Virus record (IMG/VR): IMGVR_UViG_3300027983_000019
Location: 1-58,109 of that record
Source of the DNA: a virus
Strand: one strand, 5' to 3'
Length of the DNA: 58,109 nt
Shown here: in pieces, positions 9,517-34,810 of the stretch
Numbering within the stretch: the stretch's first letter is position 1
How the letters are laid out: each line of letters opens with the position of its first letter
Program-made: the position numbers and the translations under genes
The notes under the pieces: generated by a model
Databases searched by the model: none
Seen by the model: the letters and a program-made list of their open reading frames with translations, nothing else
What the model was told of the DNA's origin: nothing

Positions 9517-10152
9517 ATGGAAGACACAGTAAAACAAGGGCCAGAAGTAATAAAAACAGAAGTAGTTTACGATGGTTATTTTAAAGTAAATAAATTAACG
9601 GTTAAGGATGGGGAAGTTGAGTACACAAGAGAGGTTTTCGAAAGGGGTCACAGTGTTGCTGGAATAGTCTTCAACACCATAACAGAAAAATATCTTTTCG
9701 TTAAGCAATTTAGAGCACCGACAGATGGTGACATGATTGAAATAGTTGCTGGTTCGTTAGATATCCCTGGTGAGGCACCAGCCGAAGCATTAAAACGTGA
9801 AATTGTTGAGGAAATGGGTTATAAGGTTGATTTAATTAACCACCTAAGAGACTTTTATTCAACACCAGGAGCTTGTTCTGAAGTTGTTTCATTATTCTAC
9901 GTTGAAGTTAGTGAGAAAATCGGAGACGGTGGTGGTGTTGACAATGAAAACATTGAGGTTGTTGAAGTTGATTACCTTGGTGCTACTGGTACACTCTTTT
10001 GGAACATGGATATTGAAAATGGGGGTAATATGATACCACCATACCAATTGATTGATGCTAAGTCTATTGTGGCTGTTAGTATGGTTGAAACAAGTAGAAT
10101 TTTGGGTGATATGTCTGATGTACTTACACAGGCTAAAATGAGAACAATGTAA
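9517..10152 (+). CDS. NUDIX hydrolase, probable ADP-ribose pyrophosphatase
   Basis: 211 residues. NUDIX box in AGSLDIPGEAPAEALKREIV followed by EEMGY: the REIVEEMG core is intact, with one extra residue between the first Gly and the Glu compared with the canonical spacing. FVKQFRAPTDGDMIEIVAG before the box and the downstream YSTPGACSE match the ADP-ribose pyrophosphatase subgroup. Expected to split ADP-ribose into AMP and ribose-5-phosphate, which could feed PRPP to pncB. Lies between pncB and nadD. Confidence 0.85.
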   Translation: MEDTVKQGPEVIKTEVVYDGYFKVNKLTVKDGEVEYTREVFERGHSVAGIVFNTITEKYLFVKQFRAPTDGDMIEIVAGSLDIPGEAPAEALKREIVEEMGYKVDLINHLRDFYSTPGACSEVVSLFYVEVSEKIGDGGGVDNENIEVVEVDYLGATGTLFWNMDIENGGNMIPPYQLIDAKSIVAVSMVETSRILGDMSDVLTQAKMRTM

Positions 10153-19791: not shown

Positions 19792-20058
19792 GATGAGCTT
19801 ACCCGACTTTCTGCTAGCCATTAGACAGTCTCCACTGTTTTAATGGTTCGATACCATTTGTCTTAAATCCTCTTACCCGACTATAATTAGGCAACAATCA
19901 CCCTAAATCTGTTTGAGTTTCACCCTGGGAAGTGCGTACGGCCCCTTTATTGAACTTAATCACTTTGGTAGTTACCTCCTTCCGTATGTTGTGGTGTGTC
20001 GAAGTTTCTCTCCGTGGAGCGGCATCTTCTCTGTCATCATGTAATTTATTTATAACTT
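19792..20058 (-). ncRNA. rnpB: RNase P RNA
   Basis: 267 bases. The ends pair (AAGTTAT/ATAACTT and ATGATGA/TCATCAT), forming P1. Blocks in the bacterial order: GATGCCGC, GGAGAGAAACTTCGACACACC-like CR-I, GGAGGTAACTACC, CCCAGGGTGAAACTC, GTCGGGTAAGAGG, and near the 3' end AGCAGAAAGTCGGGTAAGCT, matching the CR-V AGAA..CGG(C/G)TTA signature. This would be the catalytic RNA for tRNA 5' maturation. Pairs functionally with RnpA at 30927-31214. CR-I deviates slightly from GAGGAAAGUC. Confidence 0.8.
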
Positions 20059-22435: not shown

Positions 22436-22510
22436 GTCTCCCCCACGGGCCTCGAACCCGTAACCTTTCCGTTAAAAGCGGAAAGCCCGTCCACTTGAGC
22501 TTCGAAGAGA
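22436..22510 (-). tRNA. tRNA-Lys(TTT)
   Basis: 75 bases; acceptor TCTCTTC/GGGGAGA, anticodon arm TTTCCG-CTTTTAA-CGGAAA, T-arm ACGGGTTCGAGGCCCGT. Last tRNA of operon T1, separated from the rest by its own terminator. Confidence 0.9.
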
Positions 22511-22512
22511 TA

Positions 22513-22621
22513 AAAAAAGGGACTAAGTTATGATTGACTTAGTCCCTTTTAGGTGTGGTTGTAATTTTGTTACCTCCAATTAGTCAATCGATTTTCACGA
22601 CTAACCAATTATCGGTTAGTC
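22513..22621 (-). promoter_or_regulatory. Candidate Lys attenuator before tRNA-Lys
   Basis: Between a Lys-rich ORF (22625-22834) and tRNA-Lys lie four mutually exclusive segments on the minus strand: GACTAACC, GGTTAGTC, then GGGACTAAGT and ACTTAGTCCC followed by T7. Segments 1+2 and 3+4 form hairpins (3+4 is a terminator); 2 can instead pair with GACTAA in 3. This is the layout of a classical attenuator. Confidence 0.6.
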
Positions 22622-22624
22622 TTG

Positions 22625-22834
22625 TTACTGTTTATATTTTAATTTATTTACCATAATTTCTACTTTGTTTTTTCTTTTAATCCTTTTAATCTTTAAAGCT
22701 CTTTTATACTTCTCGTTGAACTCTTTACGGAATTCACTTTTAATAACTTCTTTTTCTGAGTTACTTATTTTTCGTCTTAGTTTTAGTTCTTTTAGTAAAT
22801 ACCTCGTACTAAGACCTAATACTATTGTTAACAT
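22625..22834 (-). CDS. Lys-rich small protein, possible leader for tRNA-Lys
   Basis: 69 residues with 16 Lys (for example RALKIKRIKRKNK). Hydrophobic start (LTIVLGLSTRYLLKEL), then a basic helix. Its position directly before the attenuator-like hairpins and tRNA-Lys suggests a sensing role like the four shorter leaders; it may also be an ordinary basic protein. Confidence 0.55.
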   Translation of the reverse strand: MLTIVLGLSTRYLLKELKLRRKISNSEKEVIKSEFRKEFNEKYKRALKIKRIKRKNKVEIMVNKLKYKQ

Positions 22835-22857
22835 TTTGTTTTACTCTTTTAATTAGA

Positions 22858-22929
22858 AGTCAGGGAGGGAATCGAACCCCCGTAAATCGGGTTGCAACCG
22901 ACCACCTATATGCCTCTCAGACACCTGAC
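22858..22929 (-). tRNA. tRNA-Cys(GCA)
   Basis: 72 bases; acceptor GTCAGG/CCTGAC with U73 (normal for Cys), anticodon arm GTCGG-TTGCAAC-CCGAT, T-arm GGGGGTTCGATTCCCTC. Confidence 0.88.
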
Positions 22930-22936
22930 CAAATAA

Positions 22937-23010
22937 AAAGATAGAGATTAACTATATGAGTGTTTTTCCAAATCCAAATTGATGTAACTCACATTACCGC
23001 TTCTATCTTT
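22937..23010 (-). ncRNA. Y RNA-like small RNA inside the tRNA operon
   Basis: 74 bases between tRNA-Ala and tRNA-Cys. Outer helix AAAGATAGA/TCTATCTTT, then GAAGCGGTAATGTGAGTTAC, with inner helix ATGTGAG/CTCATAT. The same GAAGCGGT and GAGTTACATC segments recur in the RNA just upstream of the Ro60 gene (44223-44300). They resemble the animal Y RNA Ro60-binding strand (GGUAGUGAGUUAUC). Likely released by processing of the flanking tRNAs. Confidence 0.65.
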
Positions 23011-23014
23011 TTTG

Positions 23015-23089
23015 TGGAAGTGATGGGACTCGAACCCACATAACCTTCTCGTTGCAAACGAGTTGCTCAGCCAATTGAGCTACACCCCC
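23015..23089 (-). tRNA. tRNA-Ala(TGC)
   Basis: 75 bases; acceptor GGGGGTG/CACTTCC, anticodon arm ACTCG-TTTGCAA-CGAGA, T-arm GTGGGTTCGAGTCCCAT. Confidence 0.92.
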
Positions 23090-23143
23090 TTAGTGGCGTA
23101 CCTTTGATTTAAGAGAGGGCACTACCGTTTCAACTCTCTATAG

Positions 23144-23214
23144 AGCGAAATGTGAGAATCTAACTCCTTCCTCTCCTTGGAAGGGAGATGCTTTAACATT
23201 AAGCTACATTTCGC
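23144..23214 (-). tRNA. tRNA-Gly(TCC)
   Basis: 71 bases; acceptor GCGAAAT/ATTTCGC, anticodon arm TCTCC-CTTCCAA-GGAGA; T-loop slightly unusual (TTAGATT). Confidence 0.9.
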
Positions 23215-23258
23215 GTTTACCATTTTTTTTCTGACCTGAATGATATAAACAGGTTTCG

Positions 23259-23331
23259 CGGAGATGATGGGAGTCGAACCCACTCCGACCTCGCAGACAA
23301 CGAGACATCTTAACCGTTTGACCTCATCTCC
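23259..23331 (-). tRNA. tRNA-Asp(GTC)
   Basis: 73 bases; acceptor GGAGATG/CATCTCC, G73, anticodon loop TTGTCTG, T-arm GTGGGTTCGACTCCCAT. Confidence 0.92.
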
Positions 23332-23389
23332 ATTGCGTCTTAGTTGGTGGTACCACCATGTAGAACCTAAAACAATTTTAACCTACTTT

Positions 23390-23503
23390 TTATTTTCTAC
23401 CTTTTGTCCACCCTTTGTAATCCAACAGGTTCCGAATTGGGAGTTTAATTCCCCCTTTCCCTTGACCTTTCATTGTGTTACTCATCTTTTGTTTCCTTCC
23501 CAT
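23390..23503 (-). CDS. Small basic protein inside tRNA operon
   Basis: 37 residues (starts MGRKQKMSNTMKG), strongly basic, between tRNA-Pro and tRNA-Asp. The ATG follows ATTATTTATATGT, the recurrent TATTTATA-type box, so it may be expressed separately from the tRNAs. Unrecognised. Confidence 0.5.
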   Translation of the reverse strand: MGRKQKMSNTMKGQGKGGIKLPIRNLLDYKGWTKGRK

Positions 23504-23540
23504 ACATATAAATAATATGGGAAGGTACAAAAGTTCCATG

Positions 23541-23613
23541 TCTAAGTGATAGGATTCGAACCTACGACCTGAGTGTCCCAAACACCCCGCTCTACCAACT
23601 GAGCCACACCTAG
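23541..23613 (-). tRNA. tRNA-Pro(TGG)
   Basis: 73 bases; acceptor CTAGGTG/CACTTAG, anticodon arm GGGTG-TTTGGGA-CACTC. Confidence 0.92.
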
Positions 23614-23662
23614 TTTTTGTACTTCCTTCTCTCATACGGAGTATAGTACTAACTAATACAGG

Positions 23663-23743
23663 TGGTGCCTGATGGACTCGAACCACTCCCCTAAGGACGA
23701 AATTTACAGTTTCGCTGTCGTATCCAAACGACTTTCAGTCACC
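23663..23743 (-). tRNA. tRNA-Tyr(GTA)
   Basis: 81 bases with the long variable arm of bacterial tRNA-Tyr; acceptor GGTGACT/AGGCACC, anticodon arm CGAAA-CTGTAAA-TTTCG. First tRNA of operon T1. Confidence 0.88.
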
Positions 23744-23756
23744 AATTGTTTTTAAC

Positions 23757-23980
23757 TAAAAAACCCTCGACTTGTTATGGTCGAGGGTTTTAGTTTTAAA
23801 TTAATATCTTTTAATATTTAACTTAATACCTAAGGTCTCGACAATTGTGGTTATAACCACAATCAGTTCCCGCTTTCGCGTCACTCGGTTTATATGTCGG
23901 TTTATTAGTTATCATTGTTTTTGTTTTTTCTTTGTTTATAAATATAGTACAAATGTAGTAAAAGTTATCTTGTAAGTCAA
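23757..23980 (-). promoter_or_regulatory. Attenuator T1: promoter, leader ORF, terminator before Tyr-Pro-Asp-Gly-Ala-Cys-Lys tRNAs
   Basis: Minus strand: TTGAC (23980-23976), 18 bases, TACATTTG (23957-23950); leader ORF 23915-23823; terminator arms AACCCTCGAC (23789-23780) and GTCGAGGGTT (23771-23762) with T6. A second GTCGAG at 23842-23837, inside the leader's last codons, can pair with the terminator's CTCGAC and block it. A perfect hairpin TTGTGGTTATAACCACAA also lies in the leader. Confidence 0.75.
23823..23915 (-). CDS. Leader peptide T1 (30 residues)
   Basis: Begins MITNKPTYKPSDAKAG. Of 30 residues, 17 are Lys (3), Pro (2), Tyr (3), Asp (3), Ala (2), Gly (2) or Cys (2): exactly the seven amino acids of the operon's tRNAs. 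Codons such as AAA, TAT, GAC/GAT, GGA and TGT are those the encoded tRNAs read. Inferred to sense their charging through ribosome stalling. Confidence 0.7.
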   Translation of the reverse strand: MITNKPTYKPSDAKAGTDCGYNHNCRDLRY

Positions 23981-24009
23981 GTATTTTTTTAATTTATTTT
24001 AATATTTCT

Positions 24010-24081
24010 TTTTTTCCTTTAATTTAGGTCTTAAACCCTCGTTTCTGATACAAATATAAATAACTTATTTTGATAAATCAA
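24010..24081 (-). promoter_or_regulatory. Second host-type promoter with short untranslated RNA
   Basis: Minus strand TTG (24081-24079), 20 bases, TATATTTG (24058-24051). The RNA would begin near AAACGAGGGTTTAAGACC; a similar start (CAACGAGGATTAAG) follows the promoter at 30908-30938. Both lie just before a tRNA-operon promoter. Confidence 0.5.
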
Positions 24082-24090
24082 GATAAATCT

Positions 24091-24393
24091 TTATTTTTTA
24101 CCACATTTTTTACATCCTATGTTATCTTTTTTAATTTTTGGTCTCTTATTAATCATTAACTTAATCTGTAATGTAGTTACCATAATAACAACCATGATAA
24201 ATGAATAGGATGATGTTGTTTCTTGAATACCACCACTAAATATATCCTTAACTGATTGAACTCCTGATGATATAACCCATATAACAATGGATATAATGGT
24301 GATAATTTGTGTTAAGTTTCCACCCATAAATCTGTTTAATTCTTGTTGACCACCCTTTTGGTTATCTTTTGGTTTTTCTATTTTTTTATCCAT
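24091..24393 (-). CDS. Membrane protein with terminal Cys pair
   Basis: 100 residues: two hydrophobic helices (IITIISIVIWVISSGV and SFIMVVIMVTTLQI) and C-terminal CKKCGKK. Charged N-terminus. Unknown. Confidence 0.6.
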   Translation of the reverse strand: MDKKIEKPKDNQKGGQQELNRFMGGNLTQIITIISIVIWVISSGVQSVKDIFSGGIQETTSSYSFIMVVIMVTTLQIKLMINKRPKIKKDNIGCKKCGKK

Positions 24394-24400
24394 AATTTTA

Positions 24401-24910
24401 TTAAAATTGTCTAAAATGGTCGATATTAAAAGTAATTGGTGTTATCCCGTCATCTTCATCCATTCCTATTGAAATTGGTTGACAACCGATTAAATGATAA
24501 CTTTCTAATACCCCACCATTTCGTGAGTATAGTTGTAATGTCATATTTTTTTTTAAATTGTTCGTTCTGGAAAAGTTAAACCACTCAAATAACATATTAG
24601 CTTCACCCAAATCCAGAAACTCGACATAATGTTCACATTGTGTTCGTATTGGCATTTGGTTATAATTATGTAAATCTACACCTAACGAACCCATTCTTGG
24701 TTGATTTGTAGATACATGAAAATCTTGATGTCCATCACCTGATGGTATTTGTAAAATCCATCGAACACCATTTAATGGTATAGTTTCTAATAAATGATTT
24801 TGACTTCTTATTTCACTTATAGGTTGAGTAGTTAGTGGCCACACTTTTATAGGTGATTTCTTAACAAATGTTATATTTTCTTTTTTATTACTAGCTATAA
24901 ACAATTCCAT
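24401..24910 (-). CDS. T4 gp19-like tail-tube family protein
   Basis: 169 residues. ETIPLNGVRWILQIPSG, the middle FEWFNFSR and C-terminal LIGCQPISIGMDEDDGITPI…FNIDHFRQF follow the tail-tube pattern (…G..P..IG..D.d…I.F.f..F). May be the tail tube or a related baseplate/tube-initiator protein. A second member is at 48143-48706. Confidence 0.55.
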   Translation of the reverse strand: MELFIASNKKENITFVKKSPIKVWPLTTQPISEIRSQNHLLETIPLNGVRWILQIPSGDGHQDFHVSTNQPRMGSLGVDLHNYNQMPIRTQCEHYVEFLDLGEANMLFEWFNFSRTNNLKKNMTLQLYSRNGGVLESYHLIGCQPISIGMDEDDGITPITFNIDHFRQF

Positions 24911-24945
24911 GGCTAAAATATAGAATAACCAATAGACTTGTAAAC

Positions 24946-25407
24946 TTAATAAACAAACTTTAATGTTAATTTATCCCACTCATCATCTTTTTTTTCTTGG
25001 TTACATTTATAACAACACACTTTTAGATTACTAAATTCTTTGGCTAACTCTGGATGTTTGGCTTTTGGGAGGAAGTGGTCAGCGGTAGCCATATCATGAT
25101 GACTTTTAACCTCATCTTTTTTCCAATGGTATAATCTTAATTCTTTTTTACCACAATATTCACAATGTAATTCACCATGGGTCTTTAACATATATAGTAA
25201 AAACTTGGTGTTAAATAACATCTGTTTAAATTTATCGGCTTTCTTTGGGTTTTTTGGCATTGGGTCTATTTCCTTATAGGAATCTATTAATAATAGATAG
25301 TCAGCATATGTACCTTGTAAAGGTTGACCAAAAATTATGTCTTGTACCTTTACATGATTTGTTATTTTTCTAACTATTTTTCTTAACATTACATCTAATA
25401 TAATCAT
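24946..25407 (-). CDS. HNH endonuclease
   Basis: 153 residues. CEYCGKKELRLYHWKKD, MATADHFLPKAKHPELA and NLKVCCYKCNQEKKDDEW give two zinc CxxC pairs and the DH…N…N HNH core. The first ATG is used; an internal ATG six codons later is equally possible. Confidence 0.75.
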   Translation of the reverse strand: MIILDVMLRKIVRKITNHVKVQDIIFGQPLQGTYADYLLLIDSYKEIDPMPKNPKKADKFKQMLFNTKFLLYMLKTHGELHCEYCGKKELRLYHWKKDEVKSHHDMATADHFLPKAKHPELAKEFSNLKVCCYKCNQEKKDDEWDKLTLKFVY

Positions 25408-25470
25408 TTTTTTAGATAAATTAAACTTTAACTATTCAATGTTATGATATATTTATAGAAAAACAAAAAT

Positions 25471-25812
25471 ATGAACATTAGAAAAATAATAAAGGAGGAG
25501 ATTGATAACTTTGATTGGTTTGATGAGGGTGAAACTCCATTATCGCGGTTAATTGATAATTTTGGTGATTTGACACCGGTTGTTAGGGGTAATCTAACAT
25601 TCTATGCTGATAATAATAATAATAATAAAACAATTTTTTATTATTATCAGGATGAAGAAAATGGACTTTGTTATATTAATTATGATGAAATATGGTCAGT
25701 TTTGGAGTCTCGTTTTGGGATTAACTATAAGGAAATTCAGGTGGTTATAACCAAGTGGTTGGATGAGGTATACGGATTAACGGGACTCACACCTTCAAAA
25801 TCGATTTGGTGA
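25471..25812 (+). CDS. Gene-array family protein, copy D1
   Basis: 113 residues. MNIRKIIKEEIDNFDWFDEG, FGDLTPVVRG, FYYYQDEENGLCYINYDEIW, C-terminal TKWLDEVYGLTGLTP (coding repeat) and spacer tail SKSIW. Upstream ATATATTTATAG. Lies between two minus-strand blocks of tRNA-operon DNA. Confidence 0.8.
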   Translation: MNIRKIIKEEIDNFDWFDEGETPLSRLIDNFGDLTPVVRGNLTFYADNNNNNKTIFYYYQDEENGLCYINYDEIWSVLESRFGINYKEIQVVITKWLDEVYGLTGLTPSKSIW

Positions 25813-25904
25813 AATAGTTGAAGGTTGGATGAGGTATACGGAATAACGGGACTTACACCGTACTCTGGAGAATCTTCTGTTTACTTGGCGTTGGATGAGG
25901 TATA
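25758..25904 (+). repeat. CRISPR-like gene-terminal array D1
   Basis: Repeats 25758-25793 (coding) and 25824-25859, then a repeat truncated after 15 bases (25890-25904). Spacers 25794-25823 and 25860-25889 are both exactly 30 bases and unrelated. The second spacer is open in all 10 codons (YSGESSVYLA). Confidence 0.9.
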
Positions 25905-25932
25905 AAAATAATATGTTAAACTGAAAATAATT

Positions 25933-26280
25933 ATGAACATCAAAAAAATAATAAAAGAAGAAATTAATAATTTCGATTGGTTTGATGAGGGTGAAACACC
26001 ACTATCGTGGTTAATCGATAATTTTGGGGATTTAAAACCAGTTGTTGATGGTAATAAAATCACTTATGTTAATGATAATAATAAAATATTCTTTTATTAT
26101 TATCAGGATAAAAAAAATGGATATTGTTATATTAAATATGGTGAAATATGGTCAGTTTTGGATTCCCGTTTTGGAATTAACGATACTGAAATTATGGAAG
26201 TTACAACCACATGGTTGGATGAGGTCTACGGAATAACGGGACTCATACCCATAAGTTACGGTTCCCATTGCAGCATCTAG
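25933..26280 (+). CDS. Gene-array family protein, copy D2
   Basis: 115 residues. MNIKKIIKEEINNFDWFDEG start (I-K-E), FYYYQDKKNGYCYIKYGEIW, C-terminal TTTWLDEVYGITGLIP from the repeat, tail ISYGSHCSI from spacer 1. The stop TAG is completed by the first base of repeat 2. Confidence 0.8.
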   Translation: MNIKKIIKEEINNFDWFDEGETPLSWLIDNFGDLKPVVDGNKITYVNDNNKIFFYYYQDKKNGYCYIKYGEIWSVLDSRFGINDTEIMEVTTTWLDEVYGITGLIPISYGSHCSI

Positions 26281-26381
26281 TTGGATGAGGTATACGGAAT
26301 AACTGGACTCACACCTTTAAGTTGGTGGTGATACAACTTCTTCATGTTGGATGAGGTCTACGGAATAGTGGGGTGTACACC
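26214..26381 (+). repeat. CRISPR-like gene-terminal array D2
   Basis: Repeats 26214-26249 (coding), 26280-26315 and 26346-26381 (last one diverged in its second half: GGAATAGTGGGGTGTACACC). Spacers 26250-26279 and 26316-26345, 30 bases each. The array ends 38 bases before the 3' end of tRNA-Arg on the other strand. Confidence 0.9.
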
Positions 26382-26418
26382 ATTAAAATCAAATAAGTAT
26401 TAAGTTATTTTTAATTAG

Positions 26419-26492
26419 TGTACCAGGAGGGATTCGAACCCCCGACCTTATGGTCCGTAACCATATGCTCTATCCAACTGAGCTACAAGTAC
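26419..26492 (-). tRNA. tRNA-Arg(ACG)
   Basis: 74 bases; acceptor GTACTTG/CTGGTAC (one T-T), anticodon arm ATGG-TTACGGA-CCAT, T-arm GGGGGTTCGAATCCCTC. Last tRNA of operon T2. Confidence 0.88.
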
Positions 26493-26536
26493 ATTGTCAT
26501 AATCGTTAGTGATTAACTCACAACATTATGTTATAG

Positions 26537-26608
26537 TAGACATGGAGGGAGTTGAGCCCTCTTAACTAAGGTATAAGCTTAGCGTAATAACCCTTATACG
26601 ACATGTCC
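26537..26608 (-). tRNA. tRNA-Ile(TAT)
   Basis: 72 bases; acceptor GGACATG/CATGTCT, anticodon arm CTAAG-CTTATAC-CTTAG. Reads AUA directly, without needing lysidine. Confidence 0.85.
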
Positions 26609-26613
26609 ATTGG

Positions 26614-26701
26614 TAGAGGGTATGGGATTTGAACCCATGCGTCGTTTAACCGACCTAATAACTTTCCAAGTTATCCTCTTAAGCCACTTGAGTAACCCTC
26701 T
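26614..26701 (-). tRNA. tRNA-Ser(GGA)
   Basis: 88 bases, class II; acceptor AGAGGGT/ACCCTCT, anticodon arm ATAAC-TTGGAAA-GTTAT, variable arm GGTCGGTTAAACGACG. Confidence 0.88.
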
Positions 26702-26756
26702 ATTTTATTTTCTTCCCATACATATAAATATGTGGGAAGTACAAAAACGACCATGG

Positions 26757-26846
26757 CGGAAGACAAGGGGATTGAACCCTCACTACCCATTAAGGGTAGA
26801 CTTGTTTAGCAGACAAGCTCAACGAACCAATATTTGACTATCTTCC
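26757..26846 (-). tRNA. tRNA-Ser(GCT)
   Basis: 90 bases, class II; acceptor GGAAGAT/GTCTTCC, G73, anticodon arm CTTGT-CTGCTAA-ACAAG. Its 5' end overlaps the stop region of the adjacent homing-endonuclease gene. Confidence 0.88.
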
Positions 26847-27755
26847 ATTAGTGTGTAGATTATTTATGTACTTAATAATTTTATTAGTTTCTTCTATTAT
26901 AAATTTTTTATGACTTGTTAAATCTTTAACTATATATAATTTTATACCTAATATCTCACATTCTTTTATTTTCTGTTTATCTTTTTCTTTTGTTTTAATT
27001 AAAGAACCATCACCTCTAATGTCTTTGTAGTGGTATATACCATTCCACTCAATACCAAAATTCAATGAGGGTATATAAACATCTAATTCACGATTACCCA
27101 TTAGTGTTAACCTATCATTAAATAAAATAGTTAAATTAGGGAAATAAGTGTTTAGTTCATTTTCTAAATATATTTCAGGTTTAGACCTAAGACCATTTAT
27201 TAATTTATTATTTATTTTATTTCTACACACACCACCACAATATTTTCTTCTATTTAATTGTGTTTTAGTTAACCATAATTTTTTATCACAAACCGGACAA
27301 GTAAACTCAACCTTTGGTTTTGTTAATTTTTCACTTATTTTTCGTTTTATTTCGTTACACTTTTTATCATCAAATCTATCACACAGTTTAACACCTTTTA
27401 AATTGACACTAACTGAGTTTCTTATATTAATTAACCCTTGCTTTGATAGTGTGTACACACTCAATACTCTATCTCTATTAGTTGACGAAGCCGAACAACT
27501 GTGTCCACAATATTTATTACCCCTCACTTCGTATGGTATTACCTCAGAACAATATTCACACATTTTTGGTTCAATGTAATACTTTTCCTTATTCTTTCGA
27601 AGTGTTGTTGTTGTATGTTCACGACCTAATCTCACCATTTTCTCATACGATTTACCTTTATTTGGGTTTTTATCACAATTGACTACATGTGACCCAGCGT
27701 GTTTAGGCGTTTTAATTTCCACCTCACCACAGAATTTACATTCATATTTACACAT
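26838..27755 (-). CDS. Homing endonuclease, Vsr/EDxHD-like
   Basis: 305 residues. Four zinc-finger-like CxxC segments (CKFCGE, CEYCSE, CPVCDKK and CGGVC) precede a C-terminal nuclease: SKPEIYLENEL, NRELDVYIPSLNFGIEWNG and YHYKD then KIKECEILGIKLYIV. This is the order of Vsr-like (EDxHD) homing endonucleases such as I-Bth0305I. It splits operon T2 between tRNA-Ile(GAT) and tRNA-Ser(GCT); own upstream box GCATATTTATATA. Confidence 0.75.
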   Translation of the reverse strand: MCKYECKFCGEVEIKTPKHAGSHVVNCDKNPNKGKSYEKMVRLGREHTTTTLRKNKEKYYIEPKMCEYCSEVIPYEVRGNKYCGHSCSASSTNRDRVLSVYTLSKQGLINIRNSVSVNLKGVKLCDRFDDKKCNEIKRKISEKLTKPKVEFTCPVCDKKLWLTKTQLNRRKYCGGVCRNKINNKLINGLRSKPEIYLENELNTYFPNLTILFNDRLTLMGNRELDVYIPSLNFGIEWNGIYHYKDIRGDGSLIKTKEKDKQKIKECEILGIKLYIVKDLTSHKKFIIEETNKIIKYINNLHTNGR

Positions 27756-27875
27756 ATTACTTTATATATAAATATGCACGTGACACCCAAAACGAATAGC
27801 ACAAACGGTTTTAATCGAAAAAACTCGTGAAGCTTTTGGAGAGCCCACCGACACCAAGCCTGTCGTTTGTATTTG

Positions 27876-27948
27876 TTGTGTCGTAGGGAGTCGAACCCTA
27901 TTATTCTATCTTATCAGGATAGCCACTAAACCGTCCATGCCCGACACA
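27876..27948 (-). tRNA. tRNA-Ile(GAT)
   Basis: 73 bases; acceptor TGTGTCG/CGACACA, anticodon arm CTATC-CTGATAA-GATAG, T-arm TAGGGTTCGACTCCCTA. Confidence 0.9.
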
Positions 27949-27954
27949 ATGTTT

Positions 27955-28027
27955 GCTCTCCGTGGTGGTACTGACCCACCTTCCTCTGATTAACAATCAG
28001 GAGCTTCACTTTAAAGCTTACGAAGAG
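27955..28027 (-). tRNA. tRNA-Asn(GTT), first copy
   Basis: 73 bases; acceptor CTCTTCG/CGGAGAG, anticodon loop TTGTTAA in a CTGA/TCAG stem, C73. The 27-43 pair is mismatched; identity less certain than its neighbour. Confidence 0.7.
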
Positions 28028-28064
28028 TATTTCAATTATAAGGTTGGTGACTTATAACGTATTG

Positions 28065-28136
28065 CGGACTGGGAGAATAACGATATCTCGGCCTTCACCT
28101 TAACAGGGTGTTGCTCTTCCTCTGAGCTACCAATCC
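28065..28136 (-). tRNA. tRNA-Asn(GTT), second copy
   Basis: 72 bases; acceptor GGATTGG/CCAGTCC, G73, anticodon arm ACACC-CTGTTAA-GGTGA. Atypical T-loop (GATATCGTTATTC) shared with tRNA-His. Confidence 0.8.
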
Positions 28137-28149
28137 TTTTTTACTTTAG

Positions 28150-28237
28150 CGGAGAGCGGAGGAACCGACCCCCGTACCCTTTCGCGTAGCCTAGGTTTCA
28201 AATCTAGTCGCATCTCCATGACACTGCTTCACTCTCC
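28150..28237 (-). tRNA. tRNA-Ser(TGA)
   Basis: 88 bases, class II; acceptor GGAGAGT/GCTCTCC, G73, anticodon loop TTTGAAA, variable arm TACGCGAAAGGGTA. Confidence 0.85.
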
Positions 28238-28246
28238 ATTATTTTT

Positions 28247-28320
28247 GGGTGTATGAGGAATTACGATATCCCGACCTTCGATTCCACAAACCGACACTCT
28301 TCCTCTGAGCTACACACACC
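28247..28320 (-). tRNA. tRNA-His(GTG)
   Basis: 74 bases; acceptor GGTGTGT/ATACACC with C73 as expected for His, anticodon arm TCGGT-TTGTGGA-ATCGA. First tRNA of operon T2. Confidence 0.88.
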
Positions 28321-28324
28321 ATTT

Positions 28325-28495
28325 TTAATCCAGTTCAACAAAAATTATCATCTTACCTTTTTCTTTTTTAAACTTTAACTCCCCATGGTATCCACCTTGG
28401 TCAGCCTTTTCTCTGTGTTCATCCAAGATTTTATCAAAGTTATCTTGGAACTCCTTTATTTTTACCTCACCTATTTTTCTAACTAAATCACCCAT
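28325..28495 (-). CDS. Small hypothetical protein between attenuator T2 and tRNA-His
   Basis: 56 residues from ATG at 28495 (MGDLVRKIGEVKIKEFQDNF), Lys/Glu-rich helix then YHGELKFKKEKGKMIIFVELD. An upstream in-frame start would lie in the terminator. Co-transcribed with T2 only on readthrough. Confidence 0.6.
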   Translation of the reverse strand: MGDLVRKIGEVKIKEFQDNFDKILDEHREKADQGGYHGELKFKKEKGKMIIFVELD

Positions 28496-28504
28496 AATGT
28501 CTAT

Positions 28505-28711
28505 GTAAAAAAAAATCCCCACCTCGGTTTGAGATGGGGATTAAGTAGTTATTTTATTAACTATTAATTACACACATCTCGTCATCTTCGTTATCCACGA
28601 ATTACGACTGATATTAATATTATGTATGTTATTATTAGTTTTCATTTTCTTTTGTTTTTTCCTTGTTTATAAATATACTACAAATATAGTAAAAGTTTAC
28701 CGTTGTGTCAA
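28505..28711 (-). promoter_or_regulatory. Attenuator T2: promoter, leader ORF, terminator before His-Ser-Asn-Ile-Arg tRNAs
   Basis: Minus strand: TTGAC (28711-28707), 18 bases, TATATTTG (28688-28681); leader ORF 28645-28568; terminator ATCCCCATCTC / GAGGTGGGGAT with T9. GAGATG at 28580-28575 (in the leader) can pair with CATCTC of the terminator arm. An upstream hairpin TTCGT-GGATA-ACGAA can sequester that region. Confidence 0.75.
28568..28645 (-). CDS. Leader peptide T2 (25 residues)
   Basis: Begins MKTNNNIHNINISRNSW. Asn 6, Ile 4, Ser 2, Arg 2, His 1: 15 of 25 residues match the operon's tRNAs (His, Ser, Asn, Ile, Arg). Codons include AAT/AAC, ATA plus ATT/ATC (both Ile tRNAs), AGT and TCG (two of the three Ser tRNAs), CGT (Arg ACG) and CAT. 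Confidence 0.7.
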   Translation of the reverse strand: MKTNNNIHNINISRNSWITKMTRCV

Positions 28712-28730
28712 GTGTTTTTTAATTTATTTT

Positions 28731-29216
28731 CTATTTTTTTTTGTTTTCGGTCTTTACACCCTCTTTAAGTGAGTTTATTGTGTCTAATAAACTTGATGCT
28801 TCCTCATAATTTTCTTCATAAACAGCTTCATCTAATTTATTTTGTAATAAATTGATAATAATTTCGGGTGCCAATTCTTGGTCCACCATCTTATTTCTAT
28901 TTTCATTATTGTAGAATTCCTCAGGTGACATTGATATGGTATATATACTAACACTAGTATTATCACCATCTGTTGTTCCACTATATGAGTTATAACCATC
29001 AACATTAAGACCAGTTGCATCTAACCCAAATGGGTTGTTATTCATACCCCACATTAATTTCATTATCTCTTCATAACGATTTTCATAACCACCTATAATA
29101 CCTAAAAACTTTTTCTTAAAGTCGTCATCAGCCATTCTTTCTCTGAATAGTTTATTTAATTTTTCCCTATCAAAGTTTCCAAACTCATCAAATTCATCAT
29201 CATTAAATTCATTCAT
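28731..29216 (-). CDS. Acidic protein with UVR-like motif
   Basis: 161 residues; acidic N-terminus (FNDDEFDEFGNFDREKL), and near the C-terminus LLQNKLDEAVYEENYEEASS followed by LLDTINSLKE, which fits the UVR helical-hairpin motif of UvrB/C and Clp adaptor proteins. Partner unknown. Confidence 0.55.
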   Translation of the reverse strand: MNEFNDDEFDEFGNFDREKLNKLFRERMADDDFKKKFLGIIGGYENRYEEIMKLMWGMNNNPFGLDATGLNVDGYNSYSGTTDGDNTSVSIYTISMSPEEFYNNENRNKMVDQELAPEIIINLLQNKLDEAVYEENYEEASSLLDTINSLKEGVKTENKKK

Positions 29217-29289
29217 AATATATTTCTTTTTATTTAAATGTCGTTCATTTTTATTGTAAAGTCAAGTAAAGAAAAATGGATAAACTTAT

Positions 29290-29529
29290 TTATATAAATC
29301 GTCTTTTTTTAAATAATTTAATTTTTTTATCCTTAACTTTGTAACCTCGTTTTCTTAATTTTTTCATGGATTTATTCATTCTACCATCCTCTCGATTAAC
29401 AACCTTTTTCCTGGTCCCTAATGATTGATTATGTGACTGACCACTATTATAGTTTGGTCCTTTAATTGTACAGCAAGATGATAATATTAGTATAAATAAA
29501 CACACTAATATTTTAAATATTGTTTTCAT
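29290..29529 (-). CDS. Small basic lipoprotein
   Basis: 79 residues; signal FKILVCLFILILSSCC with lipobox LSSC, then a very basic tail (KLRKRGYKVKDKKIKLFKKR). Confidence 0.65.
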   Translation of the reverse strand: MKTIFKILVCLFILILSSCCTIKGPNYNSGQSHNQSLGTRKKVVNREDGRMNKSMKKLRKRGYKVKDKKIKLFKKRRFI

Positions 29530-29576
29530 TTATTTGTGTTAATTTAAGTTTAATATAAATATACACAAAAGTAAAT

Positions 29577-29838
29577 AAGGAAGGAATCGAACCCCCACAA
29601 CCTACTTTATTCGGTTATACCTTTCCGTGGTGACTCGGTTTTATATTATAGTATTATTGTTTTCTTGTACAAATTTTAAGGACCACCTGATTAAGGTAGG
29701 TTATTATCTAACATGGGTATCAACCCGTCCCACGCCATAAACCACTACACCACTCACTTTATATATCTCGGATGCGTTAATTAATGGACTTTTGATTCAC
29801 CATTTCGAAGTACGCGTCTACCATTCCGCCACTCATTT
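29577..29838 (-). tRNA. Anomalous split or decayed tRNA-Leu region
   Basis: A Leu-type 5' half (AAATGAG then GTGGCGGAATGGTAGACGCG) at 29838 and a complementary 3' end (T-arm GGGGGTTCGATTCCTTC then CTTATTT) at 29577 are separated by about 180 bases. In between is another tRNA-like 5' half (AAGTGAGTGGTGTAGTGG), whose acceptor can also pair with the same 3' end. Either two decayed tRNAs or a tRNA with an insertion. Confidence 0.4.
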
Positions 29839-29843
29839 ATTTG

Positions 29844-29912
29844 TAATTAAGGTTGGACTCGAACCAACGACCTCCCCTAAAGGATTGCTCTAACCAACTG
29901 AGCTACTTAATC
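29844..29912 (-). tRNA. tRNA, probably Pro(AGG) (anticodon tentative)
   Basis: 69 bases; acceptor GATTAAG/CTTAATT, canonical D-arm AGCTCAGTTGGTTAGAGC, T-arm GTTGGTTCGAGTCCAAC. Best anticodon loop TTAGGGG gives AGG; an alternative frame would give TAG, but there is no long variable arm for Leu. Confidence 0.6.
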
Positions 29913-30160
29913 CACCCTCTCATAACCGACTTGAGTAAGAACCTATTGAGGGAACACTAATATGATGTTTTCGGTTTTCACAGTATCTCCATGGGACTAA
30001 CCCATTGTGATTACCAAACCTCCACTAGTGGTTTTCTACTAGAAATCCGAACTGGTATCTTTGACTTTACTAATAATGGTTAGACACTAACGAGTAGGTA
30101 CTAAACACTTTCGAATTGGGGTAACTAAGATACAAAGTTACCATACACATCGATGATTTG
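29913..30160 (-). other. Unassigned 248-base stretch in tRNA operon
   Basis: No ORF of note. Contains a 7-bp hairpin GGTAACT/AGTTACC and CCCCAATTCGAAAGTG, which resembles a T-arm, so it may hold a decayed tRNA. Nothing else recognised. Confidence 0.3.
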
Positions 30161-30230
30161 TGTTGGGTGGGGGTGTCGAACCCTCATCTCCCGCCTGTGG
30201 CGAGTGTCCTAGCCATTAAACGAACCCAAC
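30161..30230 (-). tRNA. tRNA with unresolved anticodon
   Basis: 70 bases; acceptor GTTGGGT/ACCCAAC perfect, D-arm region TCGTTTAATGGCTAGGACA, T-arm GAGGGTTCGACACCCCC. The anticodon arm CTCGCCACAGGCGGGAG has no U33, so the identity is not assignable. Confidence 0.6.
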
Positions 30231-30301
30231 AACCAACAATATCAAACTGTAATTATCAATTATTGGTTCTAAAAACAACTATTACAGTAATTGTTTTATG
30301 G

Positions 30302-30417
30302 TACGGGTGGATGGACTCGAACCACCAAAAACTACTTTTCGGATTACTCTTACTTTTCGTCCACCTCGTCATGGGTTACCCCAAACAAGGCGTGTTTACC
30401 AATTTCACCACACCCGC
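30302..30417 (-). tRNA. Oversized tRNA-Leu-like (116 bases)
   Basis: Acceptor GCGGGTG/CACCCGT, D-arm TGGTGAAATTGGTAAACACG, stem CCTTG/CGAGG enclosing a 17-base loop that itself folds as TGGG-GTAA-CCCA. A long variable region (CGAAAAGTAAGAGTAATC…) is shared with the next two Leu genes. Confidence 0.65.
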
Positions 30418-30439
30418 TTATGTAGTTATTTAACATTGG

Positions 30440-30545
30440 TACGGAAGAAGGGACTCGAACCCCTAAAAACTACTTTTCAGATTACTCTTACTTTTTCGTT
30501 CACTACCCTAAAGAATAGCGTGTTTACCAATTTCACCACTTCCGT
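30440..30545 (-). tRNA. Oversized tRNA-Leu, probably TAG (106 bases)
   Basis: Acceptor ACGGAAG/CTTCCGT, Leu D-arm, anticodon arm CTATT-CTTTAG-GGTAG, variable region of about 38 bases (GAACGAAAAAGTAAGAGTAA…) before T-arm AGGGGTTCGAGTCCCTT. Confidence 0.7.
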
Positions 30546-30661
30546 AGTTAAGTCTATACCCCCTCATCCCTCTTCTAATCTTGGGGGTTCCACCTTGTGG
30601 GGTGGATGTGTTTTCATCAAATTCCGTTCAGGTAACGTATTGATTACTATTATTGACTTAG

Positions 30662-30767
30662 TACATGAGGATGGAATCGAACCATCAAGAACTACTTTTC
30701 AGATTACTCTTACTTTTTCGTTCACTACCCTAAAGAATAGCGTGTTTACCAATTTCACCACTCATGT
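30662..30767 (-). tRNA. Oversized tRNA-Leu, probably TAG (106 bases)
   Basis: Different acceptor (ACATGAG/CTCATGT) but the same D-arm, anticodon arm and expanded variable region as 30440-30545. First tRNA after the promoter at 30801. Confidence 0.7.
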
Positions 30768-30800
30768 ATATTATCTAATTTTGTTGTCTCTATTGTTATA

Positions 30801-30831
30801 CAAACCTAATCATTTTTTATTAGTTTGACAA
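30801..30831 (-). promoter_or_regulatory. Host-type promoter for the Leu tRNA operon
   Basis: Minus strand TTGTC, 18 bases, TAGGTTTG. Unlike T1-T4 there is no leader ORF or terminator before the first tRNA. Confidence 0.7.
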
Positions 30832-30849
30832 GTATTTTTGTGTTTTTTT

Positions 30850-30938
30850 TTATTTTATTTTAAAAAGGTTATCCAACCATTGTAACACTTAATCCTCGTT
30901 GTTGGTACAACTATATGTATAATATATTAAGTAGACAA
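30850..30938 (-). ncRNA. Candidate short RNA downstream of rnpA
   Basis: TTG (30938-30936), 20 bases, TATAGTTG, then an RNA of about 55 bases (CAACAACGAGGATTAAGTG…) ending in GGTTGGATAACC plus T5. Shares the CAACGAGG.TTAAG start with the RNA at 24045. Confidence 0.4.
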
Positions 30939-31214
30939 GTACTTTTTAAAATTTAATTTATTTGGTATTTTATCACCGATATAAATTAACGCCACTGAGT
31001 TAGTTGGAACAATCCCTTTTAGTTCCTCTCTCATCATCCTCTTTATTCTGTTTCTATCAACCGCTCTCTTAAACTTCTTAGAACTAACGGTAAATAAGTA
31101 ACCAGGTGTACCATCTGTAACAATTTTAATTAATACATTGTCCACCACTTTGTTTTTAGCTTCCACACTGAATAACCTATCAATATCTTTATTCTGTTTT
31201 AAACTATACTTCAT
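30927..31214 (-). CDS. rnpA: RNase P protein component
   Basis: 95 residues, slightly short for RnpA (about 110-120). KFKRAVDRNRIKRMMREELK is the signature RNR helix; upstream YLFTVSSKKFKR matches the central beta strand and the N-terminus SLKQNKDIDRLF matches the family start. Binds RNase P RNA (19792-20058) and tRNA precursors. A phage carrying both subunits is remarkable. Confidence 0.88.
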   Translation of the reverse strand: MKYSLKQNKDIDRLFSVEAKNKVVDNVLIKIVTDGTPGYLFTVSSKKFKRAVDRNRIKRMMREELKGIVPTNSVALIYIGDKIPNKLNFKKYLST

Positions 31215-31244
31215 GGTACAAATGTAAGTTAAATTTATTTAATA

Positions 31245-31275
31245 AACAAAAAAAAACCACCCTAAGGTGGTTTAT
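31245..31275 (-). terminator. Terminator upstream of rnpA
   Basis: AAACCACCTTAGGGTGGTTTTTTTTT on the minus strand, closing the unit that contains the T9SS-domain fragment. Confidence 0.8.
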
Positions 31276-31384
31276 CGGGTAAAATCAAAGGCCTTTTGTC
31301 TACCAAAACTATGTTTCATTTCTCATTGTTGTCAATGCTGTACCCAGACGGTATCACCAAACGAAAGAGGAGTTACACAATATC

Positions 31385-31780
31385 ATTCTTTTAATATCAT
31401 TCTTTTTGTTGAAATTCTATCACCATCAACAATTAATTGATAATAATACTCACCCCTACCAAGACCGTTATAGGTAACAGTTATTTTTGATTCTTGGTCA
31501 TCTAATCTAAAAGCAAAAACTTGATATGTAATATCCTTTATAAGGACTATATATGACACACTGTTCTCAGGTATTAAATACTCAATAATTGTATACCCAT
31601 TTGTTGCTGGGTTTGGGTAATTTTGACCAAGTGTTGGTATTATGGTAACTGTTGAATCCCCAATTAATGTTTCATCAACATGTGTAACTGTATTAACAAA
31701 GGTTTCTAAAATAATTGTGTCAGTCTTTGAACAACCATTAACATCTGTAACGGTTACATGATATTCACCCTTTTTTTATT
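31385..31780 (-). pseudogene. 3' fragment of a type IX secretion substrate (C-terminal sorting domain)
   Basis: About 130 codons open on the minus strand, no start codon. Reads GEYHVTVTDVNGCSKTDTI, a Bacteroidota surface-repeat end, then LGQNYPNPATNGYTIIEYLI, GRGEYYYQLIVDGDRIS and a final TKRMILKE, the T9SS C-terminal sorting domain. The frame begins at TAA-AAA-AAG next to tRNA-Met. Host-derived or phage gene remnant. Confidence 0.75.
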
Positions 31781-31796
31781 GTTAATATATATTTAG

Positions 31797-31872
31797 TAGC
31801 GGGAGCCAGAGTCGAACTGACGAATGTATGGCTTATGAGACCATAGAGGAATACCACACCTTCTACCCCACG
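31797..31872 (-). tRNA. tRNA-Met(CAT), possible initiator
   Basis: 76 bases; anticodon arm ATGGT-CTCATAA-GCCAT, T-arm GTCAGTTCGACTCTGGC. Acceptor CGTGGGG/TCCCGCT leaves a C1-U72 mismatch, a feature of initiator tRNAs, but the anticodon stem lacks the initiator GGG/CCC pairs. Confidence 0.8.
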
Positions 31873-31877
31873 TTTTG

Positions 31878-32017
31878 TGTACTTCTCAGGATTTGAACCT
31901 GAACGTGTGTACCTTAATTTAATCTACCCATAGTGTGTGGGTGGTTTGTAATCGTGTCCACACAACACTCAAACATTTACCATTAAACTAGGTGCGTCTA
32001 CATTCCGCCACAAGTAC
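31878..32017 (-). tRNA. Oversized tRNA-Leu-like (140 bases)
   Basis: Acceptor GTACTTG/GAAGTAC, Leu D-arm TGGCGGAATGTAGACGC, T-arm TTCAGGTTCAAATCCTGA. About 55 extra bases between D-arm and T-arm, including ACCCA-CACACTA-TGGGT. Anticodon not settled; TAA occurs in a loop-like TTTAATG. Confidence 0.55.
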
Positions 32018-32039
32018 TTTAATAAGTATATACTAAACT

Positions 32040-32228
32040 TTATTGTTTGTCAAGCCGTTTCCTGACATCTTCGTTTAATTTATCATTACCTTTAATAATG
32101 TGTCTTGGCTCAAACGGACAATGTCGACACCCGTTGGAACAACATTGACCCTTATAAGCCAAGAACTTTTCTGTGAGTATAATACACCCATCTTCTTTGT
32201 AAAAATTTTCTTCGTTAGACATAAACAT
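32040..32228 (-). CDS. DUF5522-like Cys-rich protein
   Basis: 62 residues: FYKEDGCIILTEKFLAYKGQ then CCSNGCRHCPFEPRH. The CC.NGC.HCP motif is the DUF5522 hallmark. Overlaps the stop of the HNH gene upstream. Confidence 0.75.
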   Translation of the reverse strand: MFMSNEENFYKEDGCIILTEKFLAYKGQCCSNGCRHCPFEPRHIIKGNDKLNEDVRKRLDKQ

Positions 32229-32778
32229 ATGATTTCCAATCCTCGTGGATATTTTTATATTGTGATAAGAACTCCATATAAGTTGGTCTATACGGTTCGT
32301 GTCTTATTGTTTTACCTGTTAGTAATTCATATTCCTTCAGTGACATATTACCCTTTTCAAGGTTACAAGTACCACAACAGGTTGCTAAATTTTCCCACGA
32401 GTTTTTACCACCTTTTGATTTTGGTTTAACGTGGTCAATCGTTAAGTTTTTTTCAGATGAACAATATACACACTTGTACTCATCTCTTCTGTAAATATTA
32501 AATCTTGATAATGTTACTTTTTTATGTGGTACATATACATAATTGTTTAATCTAACAATTGTTGGTCTTTTAAAACCTTTACCATCATCCGTTAATAACG
32601 TTGGACATTCACCGATTAAATTTAAATAATCCTCGTCTCTAATAGAAACCTTAATAGGGCTATCTTCTTCATACGATACAACATCAGCTTTCCCTTTGTA
32701 AGCGAGCCTAAACCCTCTATCAAAGTTCATCACAGTCATTGGTGACGCATCCATATTTAATACTAATATTTTGTTCAT
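32215..32778 (-). CDS. HNH endonuclease
   Basis: 187 residues. CVYCSSEKNLTIDHVKPKSK followed by GGKNSWENLATCCGTCNLEK is a complete HNH/zinc core; N-terminal VLNMDASPMTVMNFDRGFRL is typical of a widely distributed HNH group. Upstream box GACTATTTATAATT. Confidence 0.85.
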   Translation of the reverse strand: MNKILVLNMDASPMTVMNFDRGFRLAYKGKADVVSYEEDSPIKVSIRDEDYLNLIGECPTLLTDDGKGFKRPTIVRLNNYVYVPHKKVTLSRFNIYRRDEYKCVYCSSEKNLTIDHVKPKSKGGKNSWENLATCCGTCNLEKGNMSLKEYELLTGKTIRHEPYRPTYMEFLSQYKNIHEDWKSYVYV

Positions 32779-32822
32779 AACATTTTAATTATAAATAGTC
32801 TAAACTATTAAGTCAAGTGAAG

Positions 32823-32922
32823 TGACCCATAAAGGAATCGAACCTTATATTTGACAGGATAAAACCCATCATTACCGAAGTATGTTATATATCATTTGCA
32901 CAAATGTTTCAATACACGGGTC
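32823..32922 (-). tRNA. tRNA-like element (100 bases, class II-like)
   Basis: Acceptor GACCCGT/ATGGGTC and T-arm TAAGGTTCGATTCCTTT are good; a variable-arm hairpin GGGTTTTATCC is visible. D and anticodon arms are not resolvable. Follows tRNA-Leu(TAG). Confidence 0.45.
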
Positions 32923-32927
32923 AAAAG

Positions 32928-33008
32928 TACCTTCGGTGGGAGTCGAACCCACACGCCATAAGACAATAAATCCTAAATCTATCGTGTCTACCATTCCACC
33001 ACGAAGGC
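32928..33008 (-). tRNA. tRNA-Leu(TAG)
   Basis: 81 bases, normal class II; acceptor GCCTTCG/CGAAGGT, anticodon arm ATAGA-TTTAGGA-TTTAT. Confidence 0.9.
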
Positions 33009-33038
33009 ATTTATTAGTCTTTCCTAATAGTCTTAAAG

Positions 33039-33122
33039 TAGAGGTGATGGGAGTCGAACCCACAAGCCACAAAGGACATTGCCGCTTAAAAACAACGTGT
33101 ATACCAGTTTCACCACACCTCC
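33039..33122 (-). tRNA. tRNA-Leu(TAA)
   Basis: 84 bases, normal class II; acceptor GGAGGTG/CACCTCT, anticodon arm TTGTT-TTTAAGC-GGCAA. Confidence 0.9.
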
Positions 33123-33136
33123 ATGTGTAATTATTG

Positions 33137-33207
33137 TATCCCCAGATGGAATCGAACCACCATCATACTCAAAATCCTGAGTGGTCGTAACTCCACATAT
33201 ACAGGAC
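33137..33207 (-). tRNA. tRNA-Gln-like (TTG, tentative)
   Basis: 71 bases; T-arm GGTGGTTCGATTCCATC clear, acceptor weak (GTCCTGT/TGGGGAT), anticodon region CTCAGGATTTTGAG. Possibly a decaying second tRNA-Gln. Confidence 0.5.
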
Positions 33208-33212
33208 GTTTG

Positions 33213-33287
33213 TGAGGGTAGAGGGAGTCGAACCCCCGGCCTATTGTTTGTAAGACAACCACTCTAAACCAACTGAGCTATACCCCC
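33213..33287 (-). tRNA. tRNA-Val(TAC)
   Basis: 75 bases; acceptor GGGGGTA/TACCCTC, anticodon arm TTGT-CTTACAA-ACAA. Its 5' end overlaps the last codons of the HNH gene at 33278. Confidence 0.9.
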
Positions 33288-34078: not shown

Positions 34079-34136
34079 AATACTAACCTTTACATATAAA
34101 TACGTGTGGTATTGTAAAAGTTCGATATTTATTTAG

Positions 34137-34209
34137 AGCTAACGATGGGATTCGAACCCACTTCCTCTCAGATACCAACCGAGTGTTCAACCGCATGAAC
34201 TTCGTAAGC
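34137..34209 (-). tRNA. tRNA-Thr(GGT)
   Basis: 73 bases; acceptor GCTTACG/CGTTAGC, anticodon arm CTCGG-TTGGTAT-CTGAG, T-arm GTGGGTTCGAATCCCAT. Confidence 0.88.
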
Positions 34210-34214
34210 GTTTG

Positions 34215-34289
34215 TGGGACCACTCAGAGTTGAGCTGAGGCCTCATGTGTTTCAAACATGTGTACAATAACCACCTATACGATAGTCCC
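34215..34289 (-). tRNA. tRNA-Phe(GAA)
   Basis: 75 bases; acceptor GGGACTA/TGGTCCC, anticodon arm CATGT-TTGAAAC-ACATG. Confidence 0.9.
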
Positions 34290-34300
34290 ATTATTTATTT

Positions 34301-34374
34301 GAGGTGAATGAGAGAATCGAACTCTCGTCATTGGATTACAAAACCAACATAATTACCACTATACTAATTCACCT
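34301..34374 (-). tRNA. tRNA-Thr(TGT)
   Basis: 74 bases; acceptor AGGTGAA/TTCACCT, anticodon loop TTTGTAA in a TTGG/CCAA stem. Confidence 0.88.
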
Positions 34375-34379
34375 TATTG

Positions 34380-34801: not shown

Positions 34802-34810
34802 GTATTTTTT

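Follow-up and report, generated by a model that had tools for sequence, protein, structure and literature searches.

RNase P is among the few RNA enzymes common to nearly all cells. The roles of the GGU in loop L15, of the bulged U and of the RnpA binding site in this enzyme are established. A minimal natural form is the archaeal type T RNase P RNA (Pyrobaculum), in which the specificity domain is reduced and which has the archaeal protein set. In bacteria, the catalytic domain (C-domain) of the E. coli RNA has been isolated by engineering; according to that study, its cleavage is slowed about 100-fold whether or not the C5 protein is present, and it depends on a 'P6-mimic' and can dispense with P18, a helix that contacts P8 of the removed domain (PMC5839562). 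T4-type textbook phages are generally held to leave tRNA trimming to the host (see in part PMC11143913). Neither an RNase P RNA nor an RnpA encoded by a phage was found to be reported in the open-licence main texts searched (including PMC7162821, PMC13282480, PMC7824862, PMC12363816, PMC6784885 and PMC11143913).

The stretch of DNA analysed here, hereafter the window, is the 58,109-base IMG/VR virus record IMGVR_UViG_3300027983_000019, which has no end repeats. An RNase P RNA was identified on its minus strand at about 20040-19784. Like the archaeal type T RNA, it has a reduced specificity domain, whereas some of the phages described here encode a bacterial RnpA. It resembles the engineered E. 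coli C-domain (PMC5839562) in being free of the specificity domain (S-domain), in having a P6-type contact and in the dispensability or loss of P18, but the phage RNA is natural and carries a covarying P6 as well as a P7 stub. The results obtained with the engineered domain match what the phages kept (P6) and what they lost (P8-P14 and, in the window's group, P18).

Detection and architecture of the RNA

The first-pass annotation of the window had proposed an RNA with the P1 pairing and conserved RNase P blocks at 19.8-20.1 kb, and CR-I-like and CR-V-like blocks as well as P1 can indeed be recognized by eye on the minus strand. This proposal was confirmed with a covariance model (R1) that was built from four other phage RNAs (alignment A6), leaving out the window. 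R1 gave a single match in the window, at the RNA (77.9 bits, E=1.2e-15), while the second-best score was 9.5 bits (E=1.9); the score is somewhat favoured because the RNAs of LR756502, LR745206 and a 476-kb contig had been chosen for their likeness to the window. The P4 catalytic core, whose absence would have counted against the proposal according to the annotation, is present (AC/GU and UCGAC/GUCGG, with a bulged U). The RNA possibly extends to about 20059-19781.

A check that the annotation had suggested, an Infernal search with bacterial RNase P models, left, for stock models, the window RNA below threshold. At the gathering threshold Rfam 15 reported 24 tRNAs in the whole window and nothing else, RNase P included. 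Between 19600 and 20300 there was no Rfam 15 RNase P match even at E<=10, and searches of the window's own record with RF00010 and RF00011 gave no match. Plain minimum free energy folding of the RNA was indistinguishable from shuffles (z=0.02), and blastn of the region against phages gave no result. When neighbouring genes were used as bait, the homologues of the neighbour had no such RNA upstream. A tight P4 descriptor, designed after the window had been seen, matched the window alone in 2,356,641 bases, and loose P4 descriptors ('canon5' among them) gave many chance matches. A 16-nt CR-V pattern was present in 20 contigs, none of which passed the P4 descriptor, the sole basis on which they were judged.

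Table 1. Positions of the RNase P RNA elements and associated genes in the window (5' strand / 3' strand for helices)
Feature	Position	Strand	Basis or remark
RNase P RNA, catalytic-domain-only	core 20012-19795; with P1 20040-19790	(-)	R1 match and helix coordinates
P1	AUGAUGA 20040-20034 / UCAUCAU 19796-19790	(-)	helix coordinates
Possible outer P1 helix	20059-20052 / 19788-19781	(-)	helix coordinates
P2	GAUGCC 20026-20021 / GGUAUC 19855-19850	(-)	helix coordinates and family pairing
P3	20022-20020 / 20014-20012	(-)	short; tentative because it has only 3 bp and overlaps P2 as drawn
CR-I	20012-19997	(-)	
P4 catalytic helix	20005-20004 and 20002-19998 / 19807-19801; bulged U 20003	(-)	helix coordinates
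CR-V	19814-19798	(-)	
P5	CACC 19996-19993 / GGUG 19924-19921	(-)	helix coordinates
P6 pseudoknot	CAACA 19991-19987 / UGUUG 19896-19892 in L17	(-)	not in the covariance model
P7 stub in place of the specificity domain	19983-19979 / 19932-19928	(-)	
P15	19917-19915 / 19872-19870	(-)	not in the covariance model
P16	19909-19906 / 19882-19879	(-)	one base common to P17 as drawn
P17	19906-19902 / 19891-19887	(-)	
L15 GGU	19877-19875	(-)	
Extra hairpin at the P19 place, between P2' and P4'	19846-19841 / 19823-19818 and 19838-19834 / 19829-19825	(-)	
RnpA, RNase P protein, 95 aa	30927-31214	(-)	PF00825
tRNA gene region, likely substrates	22436-34552	(-)	21 of the 23 ARAGORN tRNA genes, all on the strand of the RNA

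Only the P7 stub is left of the specificity domain (P7-P14 with CR-II and CR-III), P8-P14 being lost. P18 is absent from the RNAs of the window, LR756502, LR745206 and the 476-kb contig, and hairpins occupy its place in a 362-kb contig, in Stenotrophomonas phage DLP6 and in a 735-kb phage. The hairpin at the P19 place of the window is absent from LR756502, LR745206 and the 476-kb contig. An alternative assignment, in which the P16 strands would be P15/P11 and L17 would be L12, was ruled out by comparison with Bacteroidota rnpB and by the P5 and P6 pairing. From sequence comparison we conclude that the phage RNase P RNA is reduced to its C-domain, as shown by the fold, the family and the loss of P8-P14 and P18.

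A phage RNA family and its relation to bacterial RNase P RNA

Relatives were collected with RnpA as bait, which led to three IMG/VR contigs and two huge phages in GenBank, LR756502 (642 kb) and LR745206 (635 kb). Used as a single query against the fetched records (nhmmer/blastn), the window RNA gave weak colinear matches in three relatives (LR756502, E=0.018; the 476-kb contig, E=0.11; LR745206, two words), and the RNAs at these places have the same blocks as the window RNA with different stem sequences. A fifth RNA, in the 362-kb contig, was found by a 16-base conserved string. The RNA was not found in two of the six RnpA-bearing records, contigs of 159 kb (G003) and 16 kb (G001), which are perhaps fragments. 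In alignment A6, 95.8% of 120 cells were paired and 18 of 30 pairs had changed on both sides; none of 500 shuffles reached either value, and slid structures paired 26-48%. On whole records R1 gave one strong match in each of the four relatives, with a second match in LR745206 at 17.9 bits (E=0.28). When run on 20 bacterial genomes as a control, R1 yielded one match only (E=0.96), and it found none of 19 bacterial rnpB loci. RF00010 and RF00011 gave one 53-nt, 11.4-bit chance match on these phage records (LR756502).

A 36-base pattern fitting all five RNAs retrieved 41 viral stretches, two of them already known, and the other 39 all received R1 scores of 67-173 bits. This success is partly built in because the pattern covers part of the model; the evidence is carried by the helices outside it. 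The RNA of the 362-kb contig and these 39 loci were picked by patterns derived from family members. BLAST of GenBank phages with family members added four more, the 735-kb LR756501, the 595-kb LR756511, DLP6 and a Microbacterium phage, on which R1 scored 118.4, 91.6, 52.8 and 46.1 bits, respectively. The family comprises 48 phage records, among them two cultured isolates and the phages of 735, 642 and 635 kb; LR756503, which has the same length and match coordinates, is not counted. At 562 nt, one member (L250 6334-6895) is about three times as long as usual and has an insertion within the RNA.

Forty-four family sequences were aligned, of which 38 remained distinct after identical cores were dropped. 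Among the 38, P4 was paired in 259 of 259 cells, with both-side changes in 4 of 7 pairs, and P6 in 190 of 190, with such changes in 5 of 5 pairs. The corresponding values were 152/152 for P5, 181/190 for P7, 143/152 for P15, which also covaries, 144/151 for P16 and 164/189 for P17. For each of these seven helices, none of 500 strand shuffles reached the observed value. P6 and P15 are not part of R1. The 6-bp P2 was scored in 35 of the 38 sequences and forms between the strands of the same RNA in 33, compared to 162 of 1142 swapped combinations (0 of 2000 permutations reached this value). P1 differs in sequence between phages yet pairs in each, with a mean of 10.7 bp compared to 8.2 bp for swapped strands in 37 sequences (one with a short flank was dropped), although this swap test is a weak control because the strands are A+T-rich. 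The L15 GGU is present in all 44 aligned sequences.

The tie to bacterial RNase P RNA came from the Microbacterium phage. RF00010 matched its RNA at 64.3 bits (E=1.8e-19), below the cut-off of 100, in an alignment that replaces about 110 S-domain model positions by 26 nt, and R1 matched the same place (E=6e-9). Its blocks GAGGAAAGUCCGG and ACAGAAUCCGGCUUACA are those of textbook RNase P RNAs. Rfam gave no match on the DLP6 member. For a test in the other direction, 19 rnpB genes were taken from 20 genomes; C-domains could be cut from 12, the remaining seven loci having failed the motif or P5 match criteria, and nine were used for a bacterial C-domain model (alignment A8, model R2). With filters off, phage RNAs were the three best matches of R2 in 65,537 bases (32.2, 23.5 and 20.5 bits; E=1.1e-5, 0.0014 and 0.0073). 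R2 missed the window RNA and most of the RNA of the 362-kb contig, so the identity of the window RNA rests on a chain through its relatives, from RF00010 to the Microbacterium phage RNA, from there to R1, and from R1 to the window.

Like bacterial class A RNAs (RF00010; e.g. those of Bacteroidota), the phage RNAs have P1-P5, the P6 pseudoknot, P15-P17, a P4 with bulged U, CR-I and CR-V, and they also have in common with them the L15 GGU and the joining strand UAGAUAAAUG. The UAGAYAAAUG strand before P2' of Bacteroidota rnpB is kept as well. In contrast to class A RNAs, the phage RNAs are without P8-P14 and, in the window's group, without P18; their cores are mostly 157-190 nt long compared to 252-354 nt in the bacterial cores examined, and they fall below the RF00010 gathering cut-off or are not scored at all. 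An ordinary class A RNA was ruled out by the missing S-domain and P18. P18 is also missing from some bacterial RNAs (L243 and L239), one of which, the Chitinophaga rnpB (L243), carries GCAAUAGAUAAAUGA as do the phage RNAs.

RnpA and the tRNA genes

An RnpA homologue with the RNR signature had also been claimed, at 30.9-31.2 kb, and this claim held. The protein scored 40.7 bits against PF00825 (cut-off 22.3; E=2.7e-10) and contains the RNR-type signature KRAVDRNRIKR. It agrees with bacterial RnpA in signature and profile score; the phage protein has 95 aa and its gene lies among tRNA genes, 11 kb from the RNA. Relatives in IMG/VR contigs are 72% (L001), 47% (L002) and 45% (L003) identical, and LFxVSSKKFKRAVDRN is common to the RnpA of six records (alignment A7). 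The RnpA profile matched the solved RnpA structure 1a6f (E=6.9e-7), and an AlphaFold2 model from a shallow alignment of four sequences had a pLDDT of 54. Judged by their titles, the best 80 of 421 bacterial RnpA loci belong to Bacteroidota (77) and Polynucleobacter (2), with one giving no phylum. According to Al-Shayeb et al., the five phage genomes of >634 kb in their study are Mahaphages with predicted Bacteroidetes hosts (PMC7162821). In the 635-kb phage a large ORF resembling a TonB-dependent outer-membrane receptor adjoins rnpA (L064 20993-23641).

RnpA was sought in 47 of the 48 RNA-bearing records, the Microbacterium phage being left out. It was present in four, namely the window, LR756502, LR745206 and the 476-kb contig (IMG/VR 3300032236_002285), and was not found in the other 43, which include DLP6, a complete genome according to its deposit, as well as 321-735-kb contigs or genomes; many of the smaller records may be fragments. 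The annotation had further proposed a complete phage holoenzyme acting independently of the host. Both subunits do lie on the window contig, as in the three other records, and a complete holoenzyme may fit the window phage. RNA alone is the rule, however, which rules out that the phage holoenzyme is always complete, and with RnpA in only 4 of 47 records, independence from the host does not hold as a general principle.

ARAGORN found 23 tRNA genes in the window, the nearest 2.4 kb from the RNA. In 19 of 44 family members a tRNA gene lies within 2 kb of the RNA, always on the same strand and often 12-31 nt away, and in both isolates, DLP6 and the Microbacterium phage, the RNA occupies unannotated gaps of tRNA arrays. 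The further substrates that had been suggested, a tmRNA and Y-RNA-containing transcripts, were not borne out: neither Rfam nor ARAGORN found a tmRNA in the window, and Rfam recognized no Y RNA there.

Several sequences near the tRNA genes are unusual. Three tRNA-like genes of 106-116 nt with a long internal stretch in common lie at 30302-30767 (-), with similar ones in contig L001 at about 9741-10006. The segment 27865-28140, which holds a tRNA-Asn followed by two apparent unusual tRNA-like sequences, shares 87% identity with L001 across 305 aligned columns. A repeat of about 80-100 bases occurs near tRNA clusters at 23914-24012, 28625-28733, 34730-34825 and 49312-49394, and in three copies in L001; it is perhaps a promoter. 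ARAGORN 'Pyl' tRNAs were reported near the RNA in three members (L252, L260 and L247) and may be stop-codon suppressors in phages with a changed code.

Proposed function and alternatives

We consider it quite probable that phage tRNAs are matured by this RNA, acting as a natural RNase P made of the C-domain only, with the phage's own RnpA in the window and with host RnpA elsewhere. In such an enzyme P4, CR-I and CR-V would form the metal-binding active site and the L15 GGU would pair with the 3' RCC of the pre-tRNA. RnpA, the phage's own here and the host's in most sister phages, would permit cleavage at cellular magnesium, and the enzyme would remove the 5' leaders of phage pre-tRNAs. The loss of the T-loop-reading specificity domain should lower its selectivity and may allow it to use odd phage tRNAs. 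A wider scenario, for which we see even chances, is that of a widespread phage ribozyme family minus its substrate-recognition half, most members of which would recruit host RnpA or act protein-free in trimming tRNA-array transcripts, while one Bacteroidota megaphage lineage would have captured rnpA to give a minimal holoenzyme.

The absence of RnpA from 43 of the 47 records and the loss of the specificity domain would also suit a decoy, that is, an RNase P homologue that binds host RnpA and thereby lowers tRNA maturation in the host, with phage tRNAs being matured by another route. We think this improbable: all aligned sequences retain the P4 bulge, CR-I/CR-V, P6 and the GGU that binds the substrate, a decoy has no need of the L15 GGU, and some phages have added an RnpA of their own. 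The lost T-loop-reading domain could instead point to an RNase MRP-like enzyme with the same core acting mainly on other phage RNAs (tRNA-like elements, possible Ro-bound RNAs or polycistronic leaders), and the atypical 106-116-nt tRNA-like genes and a Ro/TROVE protein in the window would be in keeping with such substrates. This too seems unlikely, as the L15 GGU, reader of the tRNA 3' end, is invariant and the RNA resides within ordinary tRNA arrays in many phages. That the resemblance arose by chance, or that the RNA is a structured one of another kind, might be suspected from the missing Rfam match of the window and from a minimum free energy in the range of shuffled sequences, but the covariation in the family, the independent R1 match to the window and the RF00010 match to a family member refute chance resemblance and leave this explanation a negligible probability.

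As tRNA-maturing C-domain RNAs of natural origin, the phage RNAs would show what evolution keeps in a bacterial-type RNase P RNA minus the specificity domain (P4, P6 and L15) and would be small natural ribozymes for structure work. A hybrid enzyme of phage RNA and host protein becomes testable, and the RNAs make up a family missed by current RNA models.

Other genes were observed in passing. The Ro/TROVE protein of the window (42468-44105, minus strand) matched PF05731 just above the cut-off and shares 50.9% identity across 94% with gp540 of Bacillus phage G. A protein of the M42 aminopeptidase family is encoded at 34811-35878 on the minus strand (PF05343, E=8.7e-71). The Microbacterium phage has genes annotated as an RNA ligase and an ADP-ribosyltransferase next to its RNA-containing tRNA array (L294 3870-5701).
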